From the NCBI RefSeq assembly GCF_003955715.1, contig NZ_CP034463.1, positions 1,550,001-1,614,000 of the forward strand: a stretch of 64,000 nucleotides of DNA, given 5' to 3'. The notes below the pieces were generated by a model, which saw nothing but the letters and a program-made list of their open reading frames with translations, did no database searches and had not been told where the DNA came from. This DNA is from Streptomyces aquilus. GTDB lineage: Bacteria > Actinomycetota > Actinomycetes > Streptomycetales > Streptomycetaceae. A program made the position numbers and the translations under genes. Of this stretch, positions 2,390 to 11,773 are shown piece by piece (the first letter of the stretch is position 1; each line of letters starts with the position of its first letter).

Positions 2390-2423
2390 TTGCGCATTGT
2401 GCACCCGATTGCTTGTGATGGAA
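2390..2423. promoter_or_regulatory. Paired 15-bp dyad upstream of betB (candidate IclR operator)
   Basis: Two 15-mers of the form TTGCG-N5-CGCAA start 19 bp apart: TTGCGCATTGTGCAC at 2390-2404, and the weaker TTGCTTGTGATGGAA at 2409-2423. They lie 26-59 bp upstream of the betB start. The same pair with the same spacing recurs at 2533, 6108, 9796 and 11740. Assignment to the IclR protein encoded at 6209 is inference. Confidence 0.5.
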
Positions 2424-2532
2424 CACCCTGGCGAATGTCCAGACAGGCGTCAAGGGGTTGGCTGATGACGATTTCGCACGGGGCTCATCGACCCCTCTCT
2501 CTTGACCGGCAGCCCTCTTCCGGCCAACTATG

Positions 2533-2566
2533 TTGCGTATCGCTCACTGTGTTGTGCAATACGCAC
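2533..2566. promoter_or_regulatory. Paired 15-bp dyad upstream of purU (candidate IclR operator)
   Basis: TTGCGTATCGCTCAC at 2533-2547 and TTGTGCAATACGCAC at 2552-2566, again 19 bp start to start. The outer arms also form a perfect inverted repeat, TGCGTAT (2534-2540) with ATACGCA (2559-2565). The site ends 14 bp before the purU ATG, so binding would overlap the promoter or leader. Confidence 0.55.
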
Positions 2567-2580
2567 CGACGGAGGCCCCG

Positions 2581-3453
2581 ATGTCCCCTCGACCGCAACC
2601 TGGCCGCGAATACGTCCTCACCGTCTCCTGTCCCGACAGCGCCGGGCTGGTCCACGCCGTGAGCGGCTTTCTCGTCAGGAACTCCGGAAACATCCTGGAA
2701 AGCCAGCAGTTCGACGACCGACTTCAGGGCCGCTTCTTCATGCGGGTCCACTTCGACGTCTCCGACCCCGACACCGGCCTTGAACAACTGCGTGACCGGT
2801 TCGGGCCGGTGGCGCAGGCCCACCACTTCACCTGGGCGCTCAGCGACGCGTCGACGCCGACCCGGACGCTGATCATGGTGTCCAAGTTCGGGCACTGCCT
2901 CAACGACCTGCTCTTCCGGCAGCGCACCGGCGCCCTCAACATCGAGATCCCCGCGATCGTCTCCAACCACCGGGACTTCGAGGGGCTCGCGGAGACCTAC
3001 GGCATCCCCTTCCACCACGTCCCGGTCACCAGGGACACCAAGGCGGAGGCCGAGGCACGGCTGCTGGAACTCGTCCGGGACCTGGACATCGACCTGGTGG
3101 TGCTGGCCCGCTACATGCAGATCCTCTCGGACGACCTGTGCAAGCAGCTGGAGGGCAAGGCCATCAACATCCACCACTCCTTCCTCCCCAGCTTCAAGGG
3201 CGCCAAGCCCTACGACCAGGCCTACCAGCGCGGCGTGAAGCTGATCGGCGCGACGGCGCACTATGTGACGAGCGATCTCGACGAGGGCCAGATCATCGAG
3301 CAGGACGTCATCCGCGTGGACCACTCGCTCGACCCCGGCGACCTGGTCACGGTGGGCCGGGACGTGGAGGCGCAGGTGCTCGCGCACGCGGTGAAGTGGC
3401 ACAGCGAGAGCCGGGTGATGGTGGACGACAACCGCACGGTGGTCTTCCGCTGA
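2581..3453 (+). CDS. purU: Formyltetrahydrofolate deformylase
   Basis: Hydrolyses 10-formyl-THF to formate and THF, balancing the one-carbon pool. It is 290 residues: an N-terminal ACT domain (about 10-88) and a C-terminal formyltransferase-fold domain (about 95-270). The Asn-His-Asp catalytic set is visible as INIHHSFLPSF near residue 194 and SDLDEGQI near 232. The ATG at 2581 is chosen over an upstream in-frame ATG at 2530 because it follows a GGAGG site and lies beyond the dyad operator. It is transcribed divergently from betB. Its place in the island fits disposal of C1 units released by betaine demethylation. A strong terminator follows the stop codon. Confidence 0.93.
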   Translation: MSPRPQPGREYVLTVSCPDSAGLVHAVSGFLVRNSGNILESQQFDDRLQGRFFMRVHFDVSDPDTGLEQLRDRFGPVAQAHHFTWALSDASTPTRTLIMVSKFGHCLNDLLFRQRTGALNIEIPAIVSNHRDFEGLAETYGIPFHHVPVTRDTKAEAEARLLELVRDLDIDLVVLARYMQILSDDLCKQLEGKAINIHHSFLPSFKGAKPYDQAYQRGVKLIGATAHYVTSDLDEGQIIEQDVIRVDHSLDPGDLVTVGRDVEAQVLAHAVKWHSESRVMVDDNRTVVFR

Positions 3454-3467
3454 GCGACCCGCGACGA

Positions 3468-3504
3468 GGGGGCGGGGCCGGAATCGGCCCCGCCCCCCTT
3501 TTTT
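3468..3504 (+). terminator. Intrinsic terminator between purU and the metF-like gene
   Basis: Perfect 13-bp stem (GGGGGCGGGGCCG, loop GAAT, CGGCCCCGCCCCC) followed by six T residues at 3499-3504. A canonical T-tract terminator is uncommon for a Streptomyces gene. It ends purU; the stem could also act for the convergent gene. Confidence 0.9.
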
Positions 3505-3547
3505 GTATATGGCTTGAGGCACCCTTTTTTGTATACGGCTTCAGGCG
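3497..3547. repeat. 26-bp direct duplication of a T-tract unit
   Basis: The unit CCTTTTTTGTATANGGCTTNAGGC occurs twice with a 26-bp period (T-runs at 3499-3504 and 3525-3530). The second copy contains the stop codon of the metF-like gene (3541-3543) and so forms its last codons. It looks like a local duplication of the terminator tail. Confidence 0.7.
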
Positions 3548-9795: not shown

Positions 9796-9829
9796 GTGCG
9801 TATAGCGAAACGGATTGCGATTGACGCAA
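9796..9829. promoter_or_regulatory. Paired 15-bp dyad upstream of the ferredoxin operon
   Basis: GTGCGTATAGCGAAA at 9796-9810 and the perfect dyad TTGCG-ATTGA-CGCAA at 9815-9829, starts 19 bp apart. This is the best second site among the five pairs. It lies directly upstream of the ferredoxin ATG. Confidence 0.6.
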
Positions 9830-9919
9830 CGCCAGTCTGCGGGCCGCTCCGAACCGTTGTCAAGGCATCACCACGCCTGGTTCGAACGGCCTGGCGGACG
9901 GGCCTCCGGGCAGCTCGAA

Positions 9920-9957
9920 GCGCCCGTTCCACCTGCGGAAACAGGCGGAACGGGCGC
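9920..9957 (-). terminator. Terminator hairpin after the mycothiol formaldehyde operon
   Basis: 11-bp stem GCGCCCGTTCC / GGAACGGGCGC extended by CCTG/CAGG across one mismatch, with a 6-nt CGGAAA loop. No T-run follows, as is common in Streptomyces. It lies 25 bp beyond the stop of the hydrolase gene at 9982. Confidence 0.7.
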
Positions 9958-9981
9958 CGTGCGAAAGCCCCGTGGGAGCGG

Positions 9982-10611
9982 TCAGAAGCCGCGGTCGATC
10001 CACTCCTGGAGGTGCGGGGCCTCCGCGCCGAGGGTGGTCGTCTCCCCGTGCCCGGTGTGGACGACGGTGTCGCCGGGAAGCGTCAGCAGCCGGTCCCGGA
10101 TCGAGTCGATGATGGTCGGGAAATGGCTGTACGACCGTCCCGTCGCCCCCGGTCCGCCGCAGAACAGCGTGTCGCCGCTGAACAGGGCCGTCAGGGCCGG
10201 CGCGTACAGGCAGACCGCTCCCGGCGCGTGGCCTGGCGTGTGCAGCACGGTGAGCTCGATGCCGGCCACCGAGATGCCCTGTCCGTCGGTGAGTTCGGCG
10301 TCCGGCGCCCGCTCAGGGTGGGTCTGCTTCCACAGCGGGAGGTCGTCCGGGTGGAGCAGCACCGGGGCGCCGGTGCGTTCGGCGAGCGCGGGCGCGGCGT
10401 CGATGTGGTCGTTGTGGGCGTGGGTGCACACGACGGCCCGCAGGGTGCGCCCGCCGACCGCCGCCGCGATCGCCTCGGCGTCGTGGGCGGCGTCGATGAC
10501 GATCACCTCGGTGTCGTCGCCGACGATCCACACGTTGTTGTCGACGTCCCAGGTGCCGCCGTCCAGGGAGAACGTCCCCGAGGTGACGAGGTGCTCGATG
10601 CGGGCGGCCAT
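9982..10611 (-). CDS. Metallo-beta-lactamase-fold hydrolase, probable S-formylmycothiol hydrolase
   Basis: 209-residue glyoxalase II-like metallohydrolase with the dinuclear zinc motif HAHNDH (His64, His66, Asp68, His69; CTHAHNDHID), further metal ligands in HTPGHAPG and FSGDTLF, and a C-terminal HTGHGETT. Its ATG overlaps the stop of the upstream mycothiol dehydrogenase by one base (ATGA), so the two are translated together. In actinobacteria this pairing is usual, and the hydrolase is thought to release formate from S-formylmycothiol. The role is inferred from operon context; the fold is clear. Confidence 0.82.
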   Translation of the reverse strand: MAARIEHLVTSGTFSLDGGTWDVDNNVWIVGDDTEVIVIDAAHDAEAIAAAVGGRTLRAVVCTHAHNDHIDAAPALAERTGAPVLLHPDDLPLWKQTHPERAPDAELTDGQGISVAGIELTVLHTPGHAPGAVCLYAPALTALFSGDTLFCGGPGATGRSYSHFPTIIDSIRDRLLTLPGDTVVHTGHGETTTLGAEAPHLQEWIDRGF

Positions 10612-11699
10612 CAGAAGACCACCACAGAGCGCAGGACGTCGCCGTCGTGCATCCGCTCGAAGGCCTTCTCGACCTCGTCCAGGGCGATGGTCTCGGTGAC
10701 GAAGGCGTCGAGGTCGAGCCGGCCCTGGAGGTAGAGGTCGATGAGCATGGGGAAGTCGCGGCTCGGGAGGCAGTCGCCGTACCAGGAGGACTTCAGCGCG
10801 CCACCGCGGCCGAACACGTCCAGCAGCGGCAGTTCGAGCTTCATCTCCGGGGTCGGCACACCGACGAGGACGACCGTGCCGGCGAGGTCGCGGGCGTAGA
10901 ACGCCTGCTGGTAGGTCTCCGGCCGGCCTACCGCCTCGATGACGACGTCGGCGCCGAAGCCGCCGGTCAGCTCGCGGATGGCCTCGACCGCGTCGTTCTC
11001 ACGCGAGTTGACCGTGTGGGTGGCGCCCAGCCTCTTCGCGGTCTCCAGCTTGCGGTCGTCGATGTCGACGGCGATGACCTTCGCCGCGCCCGCCAGAGCG
11101 GACCCGGCGATCGCCGCGGCGCCGACGCCGCCGCAGCCGATGACGGCGACCGAGTCGCCGCGTCCGACGCCGCCGGTGTTGATGGCCGCGCCGATGCCGG
11201 CCATCACCCCGCAGCCCAGCAGCCCGGCGGCGGCCGCCGACGCCGACCGGTCGACCTTGGTGCACTGTCCCGCCGCCACCAGCGTCTTCTCCGCGAACGC
11301 GCCGATCCCCAGCGCGGGCGACAGCTCCTCGCCGGTCGAGGCCAAGGTCATCTTCTGCTTGGCGTTGTGCGTGTTGAAGCAGTACTGGGGCCGACCGCGC
11401 AGACAGGCCCGGCACTGCCCGCACACCGCACGCCAGTTGAGGATCACGAAGTCACCGGGGGCCACGTCGGTGACGCCCTCCCCCACCGACTCCACGACAC
11501 CCGCGGCCTCATGGCCCAGCAGGAAGGGGAAGTCGTCGTTGATGCCGCCCTCGCGGTAGTGCAGATCGGTGTGGCAGACCCCGCAGGCCTCGATCTTCAC
11601 CAGCGCCTCACCCGGACCCGGGTCGGGCACGATGATCGTCTCCAGGCTGACGGGGGCGCCCTTGCCCCGCGCGACGACGGCACGGACCTGGTGCGTCAT
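10611..11699 (-). CDS. mscR: S-(hydroxymethyl)mycothiol dehydrogenase (formaldehyde detoxification)
   Basis: Class III-type zinc alcohol dehydrogenase of 362 residues. The catalytic zinc region is [14 protein letters not shown] with GHEAAG, the structural zinc cysteines are in [15 protein letters not shown], and the NAD-binding motif is GCGGVGAAA. It oxidises the formaldehyde-mycothiol adduct to S-formylmycothiol (family knowledge). The ATG at 11699 with GAGGAG upstream is preferred to an in-frame ATG at 11732. It is coupled to the metallohydrolase at 9982. The formaldehyde source is plausibly the betaine oxygenase and later N-demethylations. Paired operator dyads lie 41-74 bp upstream. Confidence 0.9.
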
Positions 11700-11739
11700 G
11701 GCCACTCCTCGGGTGATGATCGTGTCCGGCATTCAGATG

Positions 11740-11773
11740 TTGCTCATTACGGCACGTATTTCATTTGCCGCAA
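11740..11773. promoter_or_regulatory. Paired 15-bp dyad upstream of mscR
   Basis: TTGCTCATTACGGCA at 11740-11754 and TTTCATTTGCCGCAA at 11759-11773, starts 19 bp apart. Each has one good and one poor half-site (left half of the first, right half of the second). It is the weakest of the five pairs but keeps the exact spacing. Confidence 0.45.

Follow-up and report, generated by a model that had tools for sequence, protein, structure and literature searches.

The choline-to-C1 island and its predicted operators

The DNA analysed here, hereafter the window, is a 64,000-nucleotide stretch of Streptomyces aquilus (contig NZ_CP034463.1, positions 1,550,001–1,614,000 of the forward strand; G000:C1:1550001-1614000 in a 10.39-Mb genome) that carries genes for choline oxidation, betaine demethylation and the disposal of one-carbon (C1) units. 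Five promoters in it share a double dyad, two TTGCG-N5-CGCAA inverted repeats set 19 bp apart, which is very probably the operator of one or more IclR-family repressors of a choline-to-C1 regulon, perhaps released by an N-methylated glycine. The operators, their phase, their position relative to the -35 box, their conservation and their association with IclR proteins were established by computation.

In the following list, operator scores are matches among the 20 fixed bases of the template TTGCG-N5-CGCAA-N4-TTGCG-N5-CGCAA, and E values are genome-wide values from R1, a sequence-only model built from 33 sites of several Streptomyces, including the five sites of the window and those of dmgdh and glyA.

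1–870, minus strand: ATPase of an ABC transporter, probably for betaine or choline, read from the sequence and continuing out of the window into L006, the locus to its left
895–2364, minus: betB-like aldehyde dehydrogenase (TIGR01804, 603.5 bits, below the cut-off of 668.6)
2390–2423, minus: predicted operator of betB and the downstream transporter genes (15/20; E 0.0098)
2448–2453, minus: -35 box TTGACG of betB, 30 bp upstream of the operator
2502–2507, plus: -35 box TTGACC of purU, 31 bp upstream of the operator
2533–2566, plus: predicted operator of purU (16/20; E 7.5e-4)
2581–3453, plus: purU, formyltetrahydrofolate deformylase (TIGR00655, 348.4 bits, cut-off 285.95)
3541–4377, minus: metF-like gene following betA, with no operator of its own (TIGR00676, 37.6 bits, far under the cut-off; PF02219, 24.3 against 24)
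4381–6057, minus: betA, choline dehydrogenase (TIGR01810, 869 bits, cut-off 732.1)
6108–6141, minus: predicted operator of betA (18/20; E 0.158)
6183–6216, plus: weaker pair of iclR, over the -10 box TATAGT (6197–6202) and the start codon (13/20; not reported by R1)
6209–7006, plus: iclR1, IclR-family regulator (HTH domain PF09339, 52.8 bits, cut-off 22; C-terminal domain PF01614, 155.2 bits, cut-off 24)
7009–8136, minus: GbcA-like Rieske oxygenase (224.6 bits, cut-off 670)
8267–9427, minus: ferredoxin reductase, assigned at family level
9424–9786, minus: Rieske ferredoxin, from a family search
9796–9829, minus: predicted operator of the ferredoxin operon, fdx (18/20; E 3.9e-4)
9858–9863, minus: -35 box TTGACA of the ferredoxin operon, 34 bp upstream of the operator
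9982–10611, minus: metallo-beta-lactamase-fold hydrolase (mbl) behind mscR, from a family search
10611–11699, minus: mscR, S-(hydroxymethyl)mycothiol dehydrogenase (TIGR03451, 690.9 bits, cut-off 512.9)
11740–11773, minus: predicted operator of mscR (15/20; E 0.087)
11800–11805, minus: -35 box TTGACC of mscR, 32 bp upstream of the operator

PurU, BetA and MscR pass their NCBIfam cut-offs, which BetB and the GbcA-like oxygenase miss. The identities of BetB, GbcA, dimethylglycine (DMG) dehydrogenase, SoxG and the transporter were assigned partly by context, because cut-offs were missed or no equivalog matched. The betB start at 2364 is a chosen one, the longest open reading frame beginning at 2397, and operon membership was read from gene order.

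A pair of dyads in fixed phase

An earlier note on this DNA had placed pairs of dyads upstream of betB, purU, betA-iclR, the ferredoxin operon and mscR, all with 19-bp spacing and variable half-sites. A template scan of the window found every one of them, as its top five positions (18/20 at 9796 and 6108, 16/20 at 2533, 15/20 at 11740 and 2390), with the next best position at 14/20. The half-sites are indeed uneven within pairs, the dyad at 2409 having only 7/10 matches; the idea that outer half-sites are better kept than inner ones was not borne out, the four half-sites having 36, 30, 35 and 35 of 45 matches when nine operators are summed.

It is the phase that stands out. In the 84 kb formed by the window and L006, six pairs of at least 15/20 occur at spacing 19, where 20 dinucleotide shuffles average 0.3; every other spacing between 12 and 33 gives 0–3 pairs. 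Taken singly, the dyad shows no enrichment in the window (17 matches with two mismatches or fewer, 31.6 expected), so that the signal resides in the pair 19 bp apart, and a reading based on single dyads was dropped.

A perfect single TTGCGGCAAGCGCAA dyad at 19454–19468 of the window has no good partner at 19 bp and was not counted as an operator. It lies just ahead of a LysR-type gene (19494), beside a gene with ketol-acid reductoisomerase domains, and is perhaps a LysR-type site.

Promoter layout

Most operators lie at a similar distance from a -35-like box. Among non-redundant promoters of the window and 80 related loci fetched via the IclR protein (79 from Streptomyces and one from Actinobacteria bacterium OV320), a TTGAC(A/C/G) box starts 28–34 bp upstream of the operator at betB (59/59), purU (46/47), fdx (66/66) and mscR (57/57). 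All 34 non-redundant gbcA promoters of the relatives have such a box, TTGACA or TTGACC in 33 and CTGACA in one, and the distance is 32 bp at dmgdh and 31 bp at glyA. The betA promoter is the exception, as no TTGAC-type box was found at such a distance; its operator extends over a probable core promoter, TTGCGC-18-TATGGC, recognised by eye. With the usual 17-bp spacer, the distance from the box would put the operator at the transcription start, a position that would fit a repressor.

The island to the left of the window and the rest of the genome

L006 continues the island with glyA, a second iclR, folP, soxG, a soxDA fusion, soxB, folD, a DMG-dehydrogenase-like gene (dmgdh) and transporter genes; the ABC ATPase is followed there by a permease-like gene and then by one that weakly matches a choline-binding protein. 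Within the 40 kb left of the window the highest-scoring pair, 16/20 at L006:16634, lies just upstream of dmgdh, and is an out-of-sample success for the motif of the earlier note. A weaker pair (13/20, L006:6204) precedes glyA. The second regulator gene, iclR2 (L006:6347-7141, equal to G000:C1:1536347-1537141), lies between glyA and folP, about 20 kb upstream of iclR1, and encodes a protein 78% identical to IclR1 with an identical recognition helix; its start carries a pair of its own (17/20, spacing 20). The iclR at 6209, once taken for the only regulator of the island, thus has a close paralogue outside the window. At the end of the sox gene run stands folP (L006:7183-8100), a dihydropteroate synthase (TIGR01496, 303.8 bits), as if folate supply were matched to the C1 load.

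By gene order, the operators would cover betB with the ABC transporter; purU; betA-metF; the ferredoxin with its reductase, and perhaps gbcA; mscR with the mbl hydrolase; dmgdh-folD-soxB-soxDA-soxG-folP; and glyA. By pathway logic these genes lead from the uptake of choline to serine, formate and C1 units carried on folate. The single regulon proposed earlier, uniting choline oxidation, betaine demethylation, formaldehyde oxidation and formyltetrahydrofolate hydrolysis, is supported in kind and looks wider than proposed, with dmgdh-folD-soxB-soxDA-soxG-folP, glyA and, in relatives, gbcA as likely additions.

Across the whole genome, the top six R1 matches are fdx, purU, betB, dmgdh, mscR and betA (E 3.9e-4 to 0.158), followed by a seventh at E 1.48. 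A strict pattern allowing three mismatches finds only fdx and purU, its control matching nowhere, and neither scan gave a convincing further operator elsewhere in this genome.

Further along the window, positions 31761–53080 encode a 3722-aa non-ribosomal peptide synthetase with AMP-binding and condensation domains, an ABC exporter, an ABC ATPase, an ornithine/lysine monooxygenase and a formyltransferase, which together look like a coelichelin-type hydroxamate siderophore cluster.

Conservation in Streptomyces

In the window and its relatives, the pair scores at least 14 in 61/61 usable sources at betB, at least 15 in 47/47 at purU, at least 16 in 67/67 at betA, at least 17 in 72/72 at fdx and at least 13 in 58/59 at mscR, with maxima in reversed-sequence controls of 13, 14, 13, 15 and 14, respectively, and control means of 11.2–12.2. 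The in-operon genes metF and mbl score 9–11 in every source but one. Identity within the sites is 0.90–0.97, compared with 0.59–0.87 in the flanks.

The pair at 6108/6127, originally assigned to betA and iclR jointly, belongs to betA. A pair of this type occurs in the iclR-side interval in 61/61 sources with betA beside iclR and is absent in 17 of the 20 others (81 sources), the remaining three (L014, L067 and L082) keeping it with another gene, dmgdh or metF, in that place. The regulator gene itself has the weaker pair at 6183–6216, through which autoregulation of iclR is likely; this pair is conserved separately over the -10 box and the start codon, and its conservation is partly due to coding constraint.

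At gbcA, 41/71 sources reach at least 13, but so do 27/71 reversed controls. A gbcA operator was thus rejected on score alone, and was accepted in the relatives because of its place at about -105 and a TTGACA-like box at 32–33 bp. This separate promoter and operator are absent in the window (8136–8267), L008 and L009, and gbcA of the window may depend on the ferredoxin operon promoter. The dmgdh site was observed in L006 and L014; a scripted count gave no usable sources for it.

Other actinobacterial families

Twenty loci from other actinobacterial families, not used in defining the motif, contain 26 pairs of at least 16/20 at spacing 19, compared with at most three at any other spacing from 12 to 33 and a shuffle mean of 0.25; the pairs are spread over 12 of the loci, and loci of the same genus are not independent. 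Twenty of the 26 are found no more than 60 bp (70 bp in one case) ahead of a homologue of betB, purU, dmgdh, mscR, metF, iclR or a GMC oxidoreductase, the last in two cases and only 31–32% identical to BetA. A box with at least five of six matches to TTGACA lies at 30–32 bp on one side of 14 pairs, and at 37–45 bp for seven more. Gene order varies among the loci. Whole-genome R1 scans gave matches in 10 of 15 genomes from these families. Enrichment of the paired motif upstream of betaine genes in other genomes, whose lack had been set beforehand as one refuting result, was thus found both in Streptomyces and beyond it.

In two genomes of one genus, the IclR recognition helix reads IHKSTVSRL instead of VHKSTAFRL, and the tandem differs with it, being TTGC..A..GCGAA...TGTTGAT.....CGGAA with the 19-bp spacing kept. 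Six such sites occur at up to three mismatches, and none of a control pattern; two precede genes for BCCT transporters, one falls between fdx and fdR, and three stand by other genes:

L128, about 11966; L129, 10701 and 19337; L138; L140; L141: tandem sites of the TTGC..A..GCGAA type, 19-bp spacing

G422, which is one of these two genomes, gives a weak R1 match as well. The change of tandem alongside the change of recognition helix is a hint that the IclR protein may be the binder.

Association with IclR proteins

Among 150 Streptomyces genomes, at least three R1 matches were found in 34 of the 35 with a close IclR (above 500 bits) and in one of the 115 others. The latter genome, G089, carries a less closely related IclR (59%) within a rearranged cluster of betaine genes. 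All eight loci fetched for such distant IclRs (54–60% identity) lie among homologues of fdx, mscR, dmgdh or gbcA. Pairs flank iclR on both sides in seven of the eight (in L101 R1 saw one), and 8/9 strong pairs at distant-IclR loci of Streptomyces have a box at 30–31 bp. That single R1 matches beside distant IclRs belong to an allantoin (AllR) regulon was considered and rejected, the neighbours being betaine genes. An IclR at E 1e-70 or better accompanies gbcA homologues in 66 of the 67 genomes that contain them. In the remaining genome, G058, which has homologues of gbcA and dmgdh, the 20 kb read showed no IclR and no pair above 13/20.

An IclR copy in L098 (10051–10845), 85% identical and with no betaine genes found around it, keeps GCGTATA...GTGAGCAA at its start and is possibly an orphan regulator.

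The effector domain

The C-terminal domains were compared in an alignment of 49 IclR rows (48 genes, one counted twice), which reproduces the ligand residues of IclR and AllR published in a table of PMC11323563. Where the glyoxylate-binding set has Gly160, Ala161, Asp212, Ser239 and Ser241 (E. coli numbering), the window protein has Ser, Ser, Thr, Ser and Ser, and the hydrophobic patch 143/146/154 is Ala/Ala/Thr. Position 212 is Thr in 24 rows, Ala in 18, Ser in four, Val in two and Cys in one, and Asp in none; Ser is kept at the positions of Ser239 and Ser241 in 44/49 and 49/49 rows, respectively. Trp140 is present in 48/49 rows and Asn139 in 42/49, where E. coli IclR and AllR have Ala-Pro; the row without Trp140, L113, has no betaine genes nearby by search. 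Our guess is a carboxylated, N-methylated ligand, the altered pocket residues disfavouring glyoxylate.

Proposed mechanism and alternatives

In the proposed mechanism, IclR1, IclR2 or both would bind as two dimers side by side on each 34-bp operator. The operator would lie at the transcription start, immediately past the -10 element, in promoters whose -35 box is TTGAC(A/C/G); that of betA would overlie the probable core promoter, and that of iclR the start codon together with the -10 box. Repressor on the operator would block transcription. During choline or betaine breakdown, betaine, dimethylglycine or sarcosine would bind the C-terminal domain and release the repressor, jointly inducing uptake, choline oxidation, betaine demethylation, and DMG and sarcosine oxidation, together with glycine-to-serine conversion, formaldehyde oxidation and the disposal of folate-bound C1 units. 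In this scheme we infer the IclR protein as binder, the repression, the transcription starts and the effector.

Several observations weigh against this proposal. At mscR most scores are 14/20, a value that the controls also reach, and conservation of the 5' flank, at 0.87, comes close to that of the site itself at 0.90; here it is the fixed alignment rather than the score that supports the site. The pairs of glyA and iclR1 reach only 13/20 and are not reported by R1 genome-wide, and that of iclR2 has spacing 20 rather than 19. No pair of at least 16 was found in 8/20 loci from other families, nor an R1 match in 5/15 of their genomes; R1 also found none in 13 of 79 genomes with an IclR, and a weak match (E 0.1–0.5) in nine of 71 without one. 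G061 has a close IclR, and no betaine genes were found in the 20 kb read and no R1 match. R1 scores at sites of the island itself are not independent, because those sites were in the training set, and gene linkage partly accounts for the IclR association and inflates its counts. Trp140 is not a specific mark, because it also occurs in L098, L121 and L123, where no betaine genes were found nearby.

Of the alternatives, chance matches or a general promoter element are scarcely credible: the single dyad is indeed not enriched in the window, but the 19-bp pair is strongly so, is nearly confined to the island genome-wide, is conserved across families and falls to scores of 9–11 in the in-operon genes metF and mbl in all sources but one. 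A far more serious candidate, still short of an even chance, is that IclR2, by glyA and sox, is the main regulator, or that the operators are divided or shared between the two proteins, which might form mixed tetramers. Both proteins are carried by this genome, and share 78% identity and identical recognition helices; against the idea, some genomes with a single IclR-profile match at E 1e-70 (e.g. G033, G040, G095 and G139) have 5–6 R1 matches, so that one IclR suffices there.

The closest NCBIfam model, BhcR (205.8 bits, under its cut-off), brings two further alternatives. As BhcR is reported to be an activator of the bhc genes in Paracoccus (PMC11323563, accessible text), the IclR protein could activate these promoters, which we regard as improbable, since most operators start 28–34 bp downstream of the -35 box, past the -10 element, and the potential BhcR site is upstream of -35. 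Less remote, if still unlikely, is an effector such as glyoxylate, pyruvate or another small 2-oxoacid, as for IclR, AllR and BhcR. The BhcR match and the retained serines speak for it, though the PcaR/PcaU and KdgR models outscore those of IclR and AllR. Against it, Asp212, kept in all three proteins according to the accessible part of PMC11323563, is Thr, Ala, Ser, Val or Cys here, and the patch is Ala/Ala/Thr in the window protein; yet BhcR, without the patch, still responds to glyoxylate.

Relation to known regulators

BetI, which regulates choline and betaine catabolism in other bacteria, is a TetR-type protein, and GbdR is AraC-type. Breakdown of choline/betaine, methylamines or sarcosine is controlled elsewhere by GbdR (PMC3572970), by the AraC-type TmaR and the GntR-type TmoR (PMC13390433), and by the Bacillus thuringiensis SoxR (PMC4941409), and in the accessible text none of these, nor BetI, is presented as IclR-type. 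The literature searched, which excludes subscription journals and supplements, held no report of an IclR-type regulator of choline or betaine breakdown.

Tandem palindromes with centres 18–22 nt apart, interpreted as binding tetramers, are described in 94 of 181 IclR-family orthologous groups in the accessible part of one survey (Suvorova and Gelfand 2021, PMC8222616), so that two regulator dimers side by side, as the earlier note had suggested, would be the expected reading here. The spacing found is 19 bp in the five window pairs and in other families, and 20 bp at iclR2. The outer frame gTT-11-AAc resembles the GTT-11-AAC subgroup of the same survey (group 1, GTTYCRY-W3-RYGRAAC), with the outer G and C at the ends of 8/9 operators examined, but G replaces Y at motif position 11 of the consensus as interpreted here. 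Betaine, choline and sarcosine do not appear in the main text of PMC8222616, and the group may stand in its supplementary tables.

The window protein shares its ligand serines with BhcR of Paracoccus denitrificans and scores 205.8 bits against an equivalog cut-off of 350 (NF045644). In the accessible text of PMC11323563, BhcR has Ile at 161, keeps the Asp212 that is lost here, and binds DNA less well in the presence of glyoxylate. E. coli AllR and IclR, both repressors by the same source, have related effector domains (88 and 94 bits). Their pocket residues differ from those of the window protein, which misses their NCBIfam cut-offs (139.8 bits against 406 for the AllR equivalog NF007548), and their operators are TGGAA-type, compared with TTGCG-type here (table in PMC8222616). 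Two of the 120 listed homologues carry the source name AllR. Tandem IclR operators are already known; the literature searched held no account of their use for choline/betaine-to-C1 genes.

Concluding remarks

Both betaine and choline occur commonly in soils and on plants. As a tentative extension, rather doubtful than probable, an IclR-family repressor with a rebuilt 2-oxoacid pocket (Asp lost, patch opened, Trp added) may sense an N-methylated glycine such as betaine, and a single layout of TTGAC box and double dyad about 31 bp apart may place each step of the route from choline uptake to C1 disposal under this one signal across several actinobacterial families, surviving repeated rearrangement of gene order. 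If the proposed regulon is true, a likely regulator, operator and promoter layout would be named across these families, and the effector question would become testable with one purified protein. Demethylation and the disposal of formaldehyde and C1 units would then be wired to one switch, which would also offer a biosensor part.

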